From a virus, in IMG/VR virus record IMGVR_UViG_3300047453_000594, positions 1 through 21,793 of that record: a DNA stretch of 21,793 bases, one strand, 5' to 3'. Shown piece after piece: positions 5,084-8,953 of this stretch. The position numbers and the translations under genes were made by a program. Numbering within the stretch: the first letter of the stretch is position 1; each line of letters begins with the position of its first letter. Below the pieces are notes generated by a model. It did no database searches. It was not told the DNA's origin and was given only the letters and a program-made list of their open reading frames with translations.

Positions 5084-5231
5084 CAATACCCTCGAGAATA
5101 TTACGCTTTAATTTATTTGCGCTATCATATGCTTTTATGGTCTCAGCATCATCTGGACCTTTTCTTTCTCTAAATTCATTTGCAACTCTAGAAGCTTCGC
5201 AAAACATAATAAATTGTTCTTTTAAACCCAT
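5064..5231 (-). CDS. Small hypothetical protein between gp55 and gp47 (55 aa)
   Basis: This is an ORF of 55 codons plus stop filling the space between gp55 and gp47. Its ATG at 5231 overlaps the gp55 TAA stop as TAATG. Its end overlaps the gp47 start by about 20 nt in another frame. The predicted protein begins MGLKEQFIMFCEASRVANEF, is charged and is likely helical, with no motif I recognise. The tight stop/start overlap on the left-hand side of gp55, the absence of any other coding use of the space and the conserved direction support a real gene. Its GAGG near the 3' end doubles as the gp47 ribosome binding site. The function is unknown. Confidence 0.7.
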   Translation of the reverse strand: MGLKEQFIMFCEASRVANEFRERKGPDDAETIKAYDSANKLKRNILEGIDENCNS

Positions 5232-5818
5232 TACTCATCTCCCATAAACAATTCTATTCCTTTAGCTTTTTTAATTTTTGCTTTTTCTTCTTTCGCAAAA
5301 TCTTTAAGTTGTTTATCAGTATCTTTAACTTTATCAATTCTAGATCTTAACTGATCTACAAAGTATCTACCTGAATCTGCATTATCATATCCTGATTGTA
5401 AAAATTCATCTACAGAAGCTTTTTCAATCCACTTAAATTTAATATCTTGCTGCTTCTTTTCTTTTGCAATACGGCGTAAAAAAGCATAATAGCAAATTTG
5501 AGTAAAATACGCAAAAGCATTAGGATTACCTGTGCGTGTAGCGGCTTCGATATTGTAGTTTGTAATTGCTTTCAAACAATTTTCTACAGCATCCATTACC
5601 ATTTCTTCACGGTAAGTATATCGAATAAAATTAGATTTGTGAGACAAGCCTTCGGCAATCTTAAGGAAACAATTAGCAATATAATCTGTTACTACAGGTA
5701 GTGAATTACCTTCTGCTTCAGCTTGACGTACGGTTGCAACATAGTCAACAACTTTTTGAGAGAATTCTCTATTGTTAACATAGTGTGGCTTATCTCTAGG
5801 CTTGATTTTTTTAGTCAT
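5231..5818 (-). CDS. 55: gp55 sigma factor for late transcription
   Basis: This 195-residue protein is close in length to T4 gp55. It redirects host RNA polymerase core to the TATAAATA late promoters, together with the sliding clamp and gp33 in T4. Recognisable family stretches are HYVNNREFSQKVVDY near residue 12 and the central IAEGLSHKSNF...YTYREEMVMDAVE. These are followed by NPNAFAYFTQICYYAFLRRI, the region resembling sigma region 2 that contacts core and the -10 element. The ribosome binding site AGGAG lies 7 nt before ATG 5818. A sigma70-type promoter sits directly upstream, consistent with early or middle expression before its late targets. The target octamer occurs six times in this window. 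Confidence 0.92.
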   Translation of the reverse strand: MTKKIKPRDKPHYVNNREFSQKVVDYVATVRQAEAEGNSLPVVTDYIANCFLKIAEGLSHKSNFIRYTYREEMVMDAVENCLKAITNYNIEAATRTGNPNAFAYFTQICYYAFLRRIAKEKKQQDIKFKWIEKASVDEFLQSGYDNADSGRYFVDQLRSRIDKVKDTDKQLKDFAKEEKAKIKKAKGIELFMGDE

Positions 5819-5850: not shown

Positions 5851-5880
5851 ATTATAAACTAATTCTAAGGATTTGTACAA
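5851..5880 (-). promoter_or_regulatory. Sigma70-type promoter of gp55
   Basis: On the minus strand TTGTAC (5880-5875) and a perfect TATAAT (5856-5851) are separated by 18 nt. The expected transcript start is about 25 nt before the gp55 ATG at 5818. Long A/T tracts at 5882-5905 upstream could act as an UP element shared with the divergent promoter at 5911-5951. Confidence 0.65.
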
Positions 5881-5910: not shown

Positions 5911-5951
5911 GCATTTTAGGGGTTTACAGATTTGCAAACCTATGGTATAAT
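5911..5951 (+). promoter_or_regulatory. Rightward sigma70-type promoter facing into the late Sm-like/uvsW unit
   Basis: On the plus strand TTTACA (5923-5928) and a perfect TATAAT (5946-5951) are exactly 17 nt apart. The preceding GCATTTTAGGGG matches the block before the CobT-like gene promoter. The transcript would start near 5958 and run antisense to the gene at 5987-6388 and then to uvsW. No rightward ORF of useful size follows: the first ATG at 5990 is followed at once by a TAG stop. The -35 box lies inside an imperfect palindrome (5921-5940). The box quality makes the promoter call reasonable; antisense function is inference. Confidence 0.65.
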
Positions 5952-5986
5952 TAATAGAGTCCGGTGAGAGAGGGGGATATACTTAA

Positions 5987-6388
5987 TTAATGTAGCTTTT
6001 TAGATGGTGATATAGCATAATTTAAATCCATTTCCTCTTCAGTAGCCTTTTCCATTTCAGCATCAGCTTTTGTTTGTTCTACTTTTTCATCACCTTTTAA
6101 AGCTGCGTGAATATATCTTTCTTTAATATCATTTCTGACTTCTGTAGCAGAAACAATATTTCTAGAATTTAATTTAATTAAAGAGCTTTTAGCAAATGGC
6201 ATAAATTTAGTAAAAAAGTATGTGTCATTGCCATTAGCTTGCATAGCTAAATTTAGTATCATAGGCCTTTCCATGACGATCATCGCTCCTTCAATAGAAT
6301 TTATATATGCAATAATCTCATTTCCATCAGACAACCTTATGTGTTGAATGTCCATATCATCTAAAGGATCTTCTGTAAAGCTATTCAT
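5987..6388 (-). CDS. Conserved T4-like phage protein, probable Sm-like fold
   Basis: This 133-residue protein follows uvsW with an ATGA start/stop overlap, so it is probably co-translated. The N-terminal half, IQHIRLSDGNEIIAYI followed by MIVMERPMIL, has the spacing of a bent beta-sheet Sm/LSm core: a conserved hydrophobic-x-L-x-[ND]-G strand, then a hydrophobic strand ending in a Pro. The C-terminal 40 residues are charged and probably disordered. Marine T4-like genomes often carry such a small gene beside uvsW. RNA binding is only suggested by the fold resemblance; I infer it from the pattern and cannot confirm it. Its DNA is also covered by the rightward transcript predicted from 5911-5951. 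Confidence 0.75.
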   Translation of the reverse strand: MNSFTEDPLDDMDIQHIRLSDGNEIIAYINSIEGAMIVMERPMILNLAMQANGNDTYFFTKFMPFAKSSLIKLNSRNIVSATEVRNDIKERYIHAALKGDEKVEQTKADAEMEKATEEEMDLNYAISPSKKLH

Positions 6389-7884
6389 AAAGTTATCTCG
6401 TATATTTTATATTTAAATTTCTCTTTAGTATATATCTTAATGCGTTCTGCTGCGTGATTTAGTGTATAGTTCTTATTACTTTTCCAATGGAGATCATCAG
6501 CTAAATCATATAGCTTTGTCTCTCTACCGTCATCACTCTTTCTCAATCCTCGCCCAATTGATTGTAAAACTTTAATTTGTGATTTACTTGGACTAGCGAA
6601 TATGATATTATGCAAATTCCGAATATTAACACCAGTGCTAAAGGTACCAAGACTTGCAACAATAACAGCATTTTTTTCTCTTTCAACAATTTCTCTAATT
6701 TGTTCTCTAATATCAGTGTCTACAGAACCAGAGACATAAAATATTTTTCTTCGATGGTGAGCCTTTGCCTTGATTAAATCATACAAAGGCTTACCATGTT
6801 TTTCTACAAGTTGAAATAATACTAAGGTATTTCCATCTTGATCTAAAGCTAAATTAGCAATAAAGTTATTTCGCTTTTCATTTTTAACAATAAAACCAAC
6901 TTCTTCTTGGTATTTTACTTTATTTATTAGCTTACATTCTTCATCAGAATATTTCAATAAAAGTACTGATATGTCTAGTTCCGCCAGCGCTCCTTGATCC
7001 ATGAGACTTTTCGTTGTAGTGACATAATGCGCTGGTCCAAAATAGCCTTCCAAAACAAGTTTGTGTGTATTAGTACCGTCAAGTGTACCAGTAGTACCAA
7101 ATCTAAATTCAGCCTCACGACACTTTGTAAGAATCGAAGTAAGGCTCTTAGCTTTAAAATTATGTGCTTCATCTCCGATCACCATACCATATGGCTCAAA
7201 CCAGTGACCGGGCATTTTATAAATCGATTGCCAAGTAGTAATAACGACTCGTTGGCCAAAGATCTTTTCCTTTCCTGAATAAATCCTATGACATAATTTA
7301 TCTACGTTAAACGTATCGTCAAATTCTGAATAATCTCCAAAGTCTTTATACATTTGTTCTACTAATGAAGTAGTAGGAACAATAATGATTACTTTTTTAT
7401 CATTATTGTTTAGGTACCATCTAAGCATTGAGTAAATAATTAAAGATTTGCCAGAAGCAGTTGGTGAAATAAGTAAAGCTCTTTTATTTTTTAATCCATG
7501 CTCAATTGCTTGTAGTTGATAGTCCCTTGGCTCAATTTGTTTTCCTTTTGATGTAATTGTCATTTCTTTCATGAATGACATATCGATATCAGCTTCAGTA
7601 TTAGGTAATCCATAATAGTTATTATGGAGCAATTCAAGTTGATAACCTCTACCAGGTGTTCCAGCAAATTCTTCTACATATCGAAATAAGCCAGCCGGCA
7701 GTTCTTTTTTACGAACATCATATAAACGAATCTTACCATCCCAGATTTTATTTTTATATGCTGGCATGAATTTATAGCCAGGGACATAAAAAGTAAAAAA
7801 ATCAGATAATTCGTTTGCTACAGATGGCTCACAATCTACATGTAAAAATGAATGATTCTTATTCTGAATCTTTATAACATCCAT
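6385..7884 (-). CDS. uvsW: UvsW-type DNA/RNA-DNA helicase
   Basis: This is a superfamily 2 helicase of 499 residues, about the T4 length. In T4, UvsW unwinds R-loops and branched DNA, helping the shift from origin- to recombination-dependent replication. After an N-terminal UvsW-specific domain, EPRDYQLQAI is the Q-like motif (118-127), PTASGKS (141-147) is Walker A and GDEAHNF contains the DEAH box (238-241). GTTGTL, GTFSTGVNI and QSIGRGLRKS (motif VI) complete the set. Its ATG overlaps the uvsY stop as TAATG, and its stop overlaps the next start as ATGA. A TATAAATA late box lies inside uvsY, 68 nt upstream, matching the known late expression of T4 uvsW. Confidence 0.95.
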   Translation of the reverse strand: MDVIKIQNKNHSFLHVDCEPSVANELSDFFTFYVPGYKFMPAYKNKIWDGKIRLYDVRKKELPAGLFRYVEEFAGTPGRGYQLELLHNNYYGLPNTEADIDMSFMKEMTITSKGKQIEPRDYQLQAIEHGLKNKRALLISPTASGKSLIIYSMLRWYLNNNDKKVIIIVPTTSLVEQMYKDFGDYSEFDDTFNVDKLCHRIYSGKEKIFGQRVVITTWQSIYKMPGHWFEPYGMVIGDEAHNFKAKSLTSILTKCREAEFRFGTTGTLDGTNTHKLVLEGYFGPAHYVTTTKSLMDQGALAELDISVLLLKYSDEECKLINKVKYQEEVGFIVKNEKRNNFIANLALDQDGNTLVLFQLVEKHGKPLYDLIKAKAHHRRKIFYVSGSVDTDIREQIREIVEREKNAVIVASLGTFSTGVNIRNLHNIIFASPSKSQIKVLQSIGRGLRKSDDGRETKLYDLADDLHWKSNKNYTLNHAAERIKIYTKEKFKYKIYEITL

Positions 7885-8330
7885 TATCCACCACTTTCAA
7901 ATTTTCTCCAGTCAATCATATTTTTAATAGTAGAATGTCTCCACCTAATAGTATTTATAATTTCCTCTAAAGTCTCAATTAAAGTTTTTAGATAATCGAT
8001 TTTTGCTTGTGCTTCTTGAATATGTGGATCAGAATCATAATAGTAATCCATTTCGCCTTTTAGTACTTTCAATCCATTCAAAGCATCATATTCCCATCCA
8101 AGCTGATCTATTTGGTCTTTTGGCATTTTACCATTATACCAAAGCCATTTGTTTTTTAGCAAAACTTTAAAATCCATATCTCTACGCTTCAGTTGAAGCT
8201 TAGTTACAGATAGCATTTCTAAGTATTTTGCGTGAAGAGAGGCAGTCTTTTTTGAGGCTTCATCTAATCTTATATCATCAATTTCAGAATCTTTAGCCCA
8301 CATTTTCAAAACGTCTTCAAGATTTAGCAT
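7884..8330 (-). CDS. uvsY: UvsY recombination mediator
   Basis: This 148-residue protein is slightly longer than T4 UvsY. UvsY loads the UvsX recombinase onto gp32-coated single-stranded DNA. The sequence is helical and charged. It matches the family by an N-terminal LNLEDVLKMWAKDSEID, a central basic region LQLKRRDMDFKVLLKNKW and the ending IKNMIDWRKFESGG, comparable to IKHIQDMRAFEAG in T4. The position between gp3 and uvsW is the marine T4-like order. A weak Shine-Dalgarno (AAGGT) lies 11 nt before the ATG. uvsX is not in this window. Confidence 0.9.
   Translation of the reverse strand: MLNLEDVLKMWAKDSEIDDIRLDEASKKTASLHAKYLEMLSVTKLQLKRRDMDFKVLLKNKWLWYNGKMPKDQIDQLGWEYDALNGLKVLKGEMDYYYDSDPHIQEAQAKIDYLKTLIETLEEIINTIRWRHSTIKNMIDWRKFESGG
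7952..7959 (-). promoter_or_regulatory. Late promoter TATAAATA for uvsW, inside uvsY
   Basis: An exact minus-strand octamer lies 68 nt before the uvsW start, within the 3' coding part of uvsY. T4 uvsW is expressed late from its own promoter, which makes this internal site plausible, though an 8-mer of A/T can arise by chance in AT-rich DNA. Confidence 0.5.
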
Positions 8331-8345
8331 TATATAATATTACCT

Positions 8346-8858
8346 TTATAAAAATTTGTAATAACTGTATTGAAATTCCACAACCGCTGTTAAATAGTTT
8401 ACTGTTTCAGTAGTAACTTCAAATGGTAAAGAAGATAAACTTGTCGGATGCGCGTCTGCAAATTTTATTTCTTTTACAACGTTATTATTAGAATTATATA
8501 TTATTAGTGTAAGATCTCTAGTTTTAGTTTGCCCCTGATCTCCTTGACCAACCATTCCAAACATCCAATCATGAATTTCTTGATAATTTGTAAATTGCTC
8601 ATCAACTAAAAATGTTAACGTAAGAGGAGCATAATCAAGCTTATCTGCAGCTATTAGAATATTTCTCTTTGGTGTATTCATTGTTGCGCCAGGAACTGAA
8701 AGATCTGGAATAACTGCTGCTTGAACAGTATATTGAGCATTTGGATATTTTAAACTATCAATTGCTAAACGAAACCCAGCTGGATTCGCAAAAGTTTGTT
8801 GTTCAACTAAATACGAAGTTGGTTGAGTATTATAATTGATTTCTTTTGTGTAAGCCAT
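8346..8858 (-). CDS. 3: gp3 tail completion and sheath stabiliser protein
   Basis: This 170-residue protein caps the end of the tail tube in T4, where gp3 is related in fold to tube protein gp19. Recognisable features are the early FRLAIDSLKYPN and VQAAVIPDLSVPG. Then come LDYAPLTLTFLVDEQFTNY with IHDWMFGM, comparable to the T4 gp3 segment ending in YEWM, and a C-terminal FQYSYYKF. Length and position directly after gp23 and before uvsY fit the marine T4-like layout. The resemblance to gp19 (shared tube fold) leaves a small chance that it is another tube paralogue. A late TATAAATA box lies 30 nt upstream; the ribosome binding site is weak (GGAAA). Confidence 0.82.
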   Translation of the reverse strand: MAYTKEINYNTQPTSYLVEQQTFANPAGFRLAIDSLKYPNAQYTVQAAVIPDLSVPGATMNTPKRNILIAADKLDYAPLTLTFLVDEQFTNYQEIHDWMFGMVGQGDQGQTKTRDLTLIIYNSNNNVVKEIKFADAHPTSLSSLPFEVTTETVNYLTAVVEFQYSYYKFL

Positions 8859-8887
8859 AATAATTTTCCATCTAAATTACTTTATAC

Positions 8888-8895
8888 TATTTATA
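8888..8895 (-). promoter_or_regulatory. Late promoter TATAAATA for gp3
   Basis: An exact minus-strand octamer lies 30 nt before the gp3 ATG. It sits just past the T-tract of the gp23 terminator, so it restarts transcription for gp3-uvsY-uvsW. Confidence 0.85.
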
Positions 8896-8899
8896 TGAT

Positions 8900-8925
8900 A
8901 AAAAAAGGGGCTCCGAAGAGCCCCT
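8900..8925 (-). terminator. Rho-independent terminator after gp23
   Basis: On the minus strand an 8-bp stem (AGGGGCTC/GAGCCCCT, 8925-8906) closes a UUCG tetraloop and is followed by seven T residues (8906-8900). This is a textbook intrinsic terminator ending the head-gene transcript about 30 nt after the gp23 stop. A weaker 5-bp hairpin (GTAGG/CCTAC) lies between it and gp23 at about 8934-8948. Confidence 0.93.
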
Positions 8926-8953
8926 CAAAGAAGGTAGGTTAACCCTACTCTTA

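Follow-up and report, generated by a model that had tools for sequence, protein, structure and literature searches.

Why should a phage carry so strong a promoter at a place where that promoter serves no gene? The question arises in an IMG/VR virus record of 21.8 kb that belongs to a marine T4-like phage; the whole 21,793 nucleotides of the record were analysed and are called the window here. By tblastn with gp55, the closest named relatives are phage C48C1 (65%) and Pelagibacter phage HTVC008M (48%). The minus strand carries, in the order of transcription, a tail tube gene, uvsY, uvsW, a small conserved gene and gp55. The small gene was called ‘Sm-like’ in an earlier note on this DNA, and we keep that name. 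Between its stop codon (5987) and the start of gp55 (5818) lie two promoters placed back to back, one reading leftward into gp55, a feature absent from the earlier note, and the other reading rightward as an orphan (Table 1). Marine T4-like phages rank with the most abundant phages of the ocean; the literature that we found gives no established site for the start of their replication.

The orphan promoter and its setting

A scan of the window listed 99 promoter-like sites, an unremarkable number given the 85.6 ± 9.1 found in shuffled sequences, and the orphan promoter had the highest score of them all. It was first noticed as a near-consensus plus-strand TTTACA-17-TATAAT, a description that the scan bears out: the site is of the sigma70 type (hexamers at 16–18 bp spacing), matches 11 of 12 hexamer positions, includes the TGG extension, and stands above chance. 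The Sm-like gene and uvsW had been described as coded opposite to the promoter, and both do lie on the minus strand, as do gp55 and uvsY. If the promoter is active, its plus-strand transcript would by geometry be antisense to the Sm-like gene, and also to uvsW if it is long enough.

Table 1. Features of the window between gp55 and the region upstream of uvsW, with positions counted from the first letter of the window.
Feature	Position	Strand	Basis
Orphan promoter: −35 TTTACA (5923–5928), spacer 17, extended −10 TGG (5943–5945), −10 TATAAT (5946–5951)	5923..5951	+	Promoter scan and conservation in relatives
Conserved transcript start: predicted +1 at ~5957–5959; G/purine-rich tract 5966–5977; ends in TATAC (5978–5982)	5952..5982	+	Alignment, R-loop rank
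TTTTAGGGG abutting the −35 on its upstream side; kept in the window clade	5914..5922	+	Alignment and anchored consensus
Divergent gp55 promoter, TGTACA-17-TATAAT	5851..5879	−	Scan; conserved in relatives
gp55, late sigma factor	5231..5818	−	PHROG 234, E 4e-52; tblastn
Small conserved gene (‘Sm-like’); T4-like GC 139 / PHROG 527, 431, 471	5987..6388	−	
uvsW helicase	6385..7884	−	Pfam UvsW_N, E 9e-17
uvsY	7884..8330	−	Pfam UvsY, E 2e-27
Late-promoter-like TATAAATA upstream of uvsW; in some close relatives only	7952..7959	−	

No protein product is apparent for such a transcript. The claim that no usable open reading frame follows the promoter holds, with the first plus-strand ATG (5990–5992) running directly into TAG. 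Plus-strand reading frames near the promoter in relatives have a median of 10 codons, compared with 13 in shuffles, and a small plus-strand frame as the product was rejected because these frames are no longer than those in shuffles. The sequence beyond 5982 is AT-rich in the window, and the scan listed nothing like a plus-strand terminator from 5952 to 8930. The gap between the major capsid gene and the tail tube gene holds, on the minus strand, a strong hairpin with a run of T (GAGGGGCTCTTCGGAGCCCCTT TTTTTATC, 8905–8926) that resembles an intrinsic terminator.

Conservation of the promoter and of the transcript start

The element is widespread. Three scans with gp55 proteins, together with the named phages, yielded a set of about 239 gp55 loci. 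In 227 of them a promoter on the opposite strand lies near the 3′ end of the upstream gene, with gp55 identity falling to about 45%. In 80 non-redundant regions upstream of gp55, the best opposite-strand promoter averaged 11.9 bits, compared with 6.8 bits in dinucleotide shuffles, which places the orphan promoter 34 standard deviations above the shuffles. An opposite-strand promoter scoring 9 bits or more was present in 94% of these regions, in 8.5% of shuffles and in 8% of 25 control intergenic regions. The promoter of gp55 itself averaged 11.8 bits, so the orphan promoter is equally strong. In seven complete genomes (C48C1, HTVC008M, Syn19, P-SSM4, S-B64, ACG-2014b and Syn9), each with 38–60 tandem intergenic regions, the orphan site ranked first for opposite-strand promoter score in all seven, which share synteny and ancestry and thus are not independent tests. 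The element is also present in P-HM2, a Eurybiavirus, for which strand-specific RNA-seq data exist (GSE79359); its start is predicted at about 120,709 of GU075905 there, and at about 123,698 of DQ149023 in Syn9.

Loss of the −10 and −35 boxes in close relatives had been named in the earlier note as a ground for rejecting its reading; when these relatives were checked, the boxes proved to be kept. The exact 29-base promoter occurs in three other contigs, and a near-identity DNA search of a phage collection gave no match. No family was returned by an Rfam search of the window and ten relatives. A literature search that did not take in the Syn9 transcriptome paper (doi 10.1038/ismej.2015.210), which possibly maps the start without comment, found no description of the element. 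In intergenic sequence free of selection, a promoter would be expected to decay while gp55 diverges to about 45% identity. Judged from sequence comparison, the element is very probably a conserved promoter that makes a non-coding transcript and is kept across marine T4-like phages; since so strong a promoter is retained across the whole group without a gene, such an RNA is almost certainly made. That one site holds the single strongest gene-less promoter across the group makes it a specific candidate for an origin or for a regulatory RNA common to these phages.

The position of the element is stable while its neighbours vary. The Sm-like gene adjoins it in convergent geometry in 225 of 227 loci. 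At 25 loci an insertion moves gp55 200–960 nt away, and the element stays beside the Sm-like stop codon; at one locus (L083) an extra gene separates the Sm-like gene from the element, which stays beside gp55. Both arrangements indicate that the element does not simply follow from the gp55 promoter and does not need to abut the Sm-like gene. Simple occlusion of the gp55 promoter is likewise disfavoured by the loci in which gp55 is separated. At a further locus (L061) other genes adjoin the element, and the contig ends before it reaches the position of uvsW. Insertions between the element and gp55 recur (L041, L047, L055, L056 and L068), and several encode a cytidylyltransferase-like protein (MKxGFTCSxFDLLHAGH).

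Conservation extends a short way past the promoter. In an alignment of nine close sequences, the window included, the stretch from −35 to −10 is 96% identical and the 31 bases beyond the −10 (5952–5982) are 99% identical, with 94% of positions invariant; the spacer between the two divergent promoters is 80% identical, and the 3′ end of the Sm-like gene beyond 5990 only 53–61%. The conserved stretch thus stops about 30 nt past the −10, at TATAC (5982). The window and C48C1 clades share a G-rich start that closes with a TATAC-like motif, whose distance from the −10 hardly varies (23–28 nt). Cyanophages have a conserved start of different sequence, and HTVC008M-like phages have, centred on the predicted start, a dyad whose arms pair perfectly (at least four pairs in 26 of 65 unique sequences, against 5.7 ± 2.1). 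The promoter is therefore common to all clades and the start is specific to each. The left arm of the dyad should lie outside the transcript, so the dyad may act at the level of DNA. A short 5′ hairpin is found in HTVC008M-like phages (z 5.6) and cyanophages (z 4.0) and is absent from the window clade; its wobble pairs do not separate action as RNA from action as DNA.

The length of the predicted transcript may also differ by clade. In cyanophages, terminator-like hairpins lie about 93–130 nt past the −10, more often than shuffling of synonymous codons would produce (z −4.4); antisense controls taken from uvsW, from gp55 and from the inner codons of the Sm-like gene gave z between −1.7 and 1.8. 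With hairpins at that distance, the predicted cyanophage RNAs would stop hundreds of nucleotides before reaching uvsW. Plus-strand terminators are not beyond chance in the window clade (z 0.3) or in the HTVC008M clade.

A candidate replication origin and competing explanations

We tentatively favour the view that the element is a transcript-primed, oriF-like replication origin. A host-type RNA polymerase would start near 5958, presumably before gp55 takes over, and a non-coding RNA would run rightward from there. The G-rich start would keep the new RNA annealed to its template as an R-loop, and this RNA would prime leading-strand DNA synthesis toward uvsW, as happens at T4 oriF. The origin would be switched off once gp55 redirects the polymerase and UvsW accumulates. 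G-rich RNA stabilises hybrids at the transcript-primed origins of ColE1 and mitochondria.

Several observations point this way. The promoter is strong and conserved, with T4 oriF as a precedent; selection is confined to the promoter and the start; there is one such promoter per genome, independent of its neighbours; and R-loop propensity is high in two clades. When the window was ranked by the stability of the RNA:DNA hybrid over that of the duplex, the 25-mer from 5958 came 2nd of 43,536, a ranking that is approximate in its nearest-neighbour values, which follow published tables. The start has a median percentile of 0.1 among window-clade sequences and of 0.4 among those of the C48C1 clade. 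Other results weaken the origin reading. HTVC008M-like starts, at percentile 30, are not prone to R-loops (cyanophage starts, at 12, are mildly so), and the predicted cyanophage transcripts are short, at about 100 nt. GC skew supports the reading weakly and non-specifically: in each of the seven complete genomes the element falls within the lowest 16–33% of the detrended cumulative curve, but this is a broad trough whose minimum lies 8–23 kb from the element, with no step or sharp extremum at the element itself. The T4 precedent is also imperfect, as oriF serves uvsY, and so is not an orphan, and has a MotA site. More tentative still is the extension to the whole group, by which Kyanoviridae, the Eurybiavirus P-HM2 and uncultured relatives might share one dedicated transcript-primed origin at a constant place between uvsW and gp55, driven by a host-type promoter that serves no gene and, in some clades, by a G-rich start that forms R-loops, beside the gene of the helicase that would shut the origin off.

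The earlier note had read the promoter as a source of antisense RNA that keeps uvsW silent until gp55 takes over. Much of its premise stands, in that the promoter is under selection, lacks a coding product and would give a transcript antisense to the Sm-like gene; the silencing role is what finds no support. More broadly, the RNA or convergent transcription could dampen the Sm-like/uvsW unit before late transcription, which we consider possible but doubtful. The convergent geometry in nearly all loci, usually with the Sm-like gene adjacent, is what such control would lead one to expect; uvsW is made late in T4 (PMC3016281), and cyanophage S-PM2 has a known antisense RNA, CfrI (PMC2984593). However, it is the start that is conserved and not the antisense body, and a cis-antisense RNA needs no conserved start. 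The short cyanophage transcripts would fall short of uvsW, another gene can intervene (as at L083), and a late promoter beside uvsW, present in the window and some close relatives, was rejected as a family trait (3 of 49, against 5.2 expected).

Conservation of the start within each clade would suit a trans-acting small RNA whose first 20–30 nt pair with host or phage RNAs or bind a protein, and the cyanophage terminators would suit it as well. Even so, this is unlikely, with a start sequence that varies between clades, terminators missing from the window and HTVC008M clades, and no match to an Rfam family. A role as a transcription barrier appears improbable: opposing initiation would keep late uvsW/Sm-like transcripts out of gp55-47-46, possibly helped by a minus-strand Rho site rich in C. 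The element does always sit at the boundary of two units, and the minus-strand RNA is C-rich and G-poor just past the stop codon, but HTVC008M and cyanophages show this tract only weakly, and a barrier has no need of a conserved start at a fixed spacing from the −10. Functionless bidirectional transcription from the gp55 promoter is very improbable. It would account for promoters that stand back to back and for the many cyanophages in which the −35 boxes of the two divergent promoters interdigitate; against it, the element is kept with gp55 up to 960 nt away, scores far above shuffles, and has a start that is better conserved than the stretch separating the two promoters.

T4 oriF and other known systems

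The origin reading takes its model from T4, in which oriF and oriG each have a promoter with a sigma70-type −10 and the oriF transcript forms a persistent R-loop; UvsW unwinds R-loops, and oriF is shut off by the promoter switch together with UvsW (PMC3016281). T4 oriF (ori-uvsY), at 115321 on the minus strand, is directed at the 3′ end of the plus-strand uvsW, a geometry that matches the element described here. Both lie downstream of uvsW and have a sigma70-type −10 (GTGGTATAAT in T4), and the use of oriF before late transcription is presumed to have its counterpart here. The promoter of oriF depends on MotA and serves uvsY, whereas the element has a TTGACA-like −35, no gene and a G-rich start, and its role as an origin is putative. 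A MotA-dependent middle promoter was not found at the element, where a TTTACA/TTGACA-like −35 at 17 bp fills the site, and for this reason we leave the element out of the oriF class, although it may work alike. A host-like promoter is what would be expected, since cyanomyoviruses lack motA (PMC2984593). A resemblance between GTGGTATAATGAATCTAAGTCC of T4 oriF and GTGGTATAATTAATAGAGTCC of the relatives was noticed post hoc and is given no weight.

For Syn9, a single theta origin has been described as a prediction only (PMC2984593). Transcript-primed replication at the ColE1 and mitochondrial origins, a parallel drawn in PMC3016281, is a likeness in mechanism only, with no relation in sequence. 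CfrI resembles the predicted RNA in being non-coding, antisense to phage genes and carried by a T4-like phage (PMC2984593), but it sits at psbA and a homing endonuclease gene, an unrelated site.

Some smaller regularities accompany the element. The −35 hexamers of the divergent promoters (5874–5879 and 5923–5928 in the window) are identical within a phage in 33 of 75 cases, against 20.3 ± 2.7 expected; this hints at a shared recognition factor, and common ancestry could explain it too. The dyad of HTVC008M-like and other marine clades (4700–4810 in L003, and relatives, just past the opposite-strand −10) pairs perfectly by Watson–Crick rules around a TGT centre, with arms that vary. The Sm-like protein has His as its last residue before the stop codon in 48 of 48 window-clade sequences, 61 of 63 in the group classed as ‘other’ and 13 of 15 HTVC008M-like sequences, a feature not seen in cyanophages.
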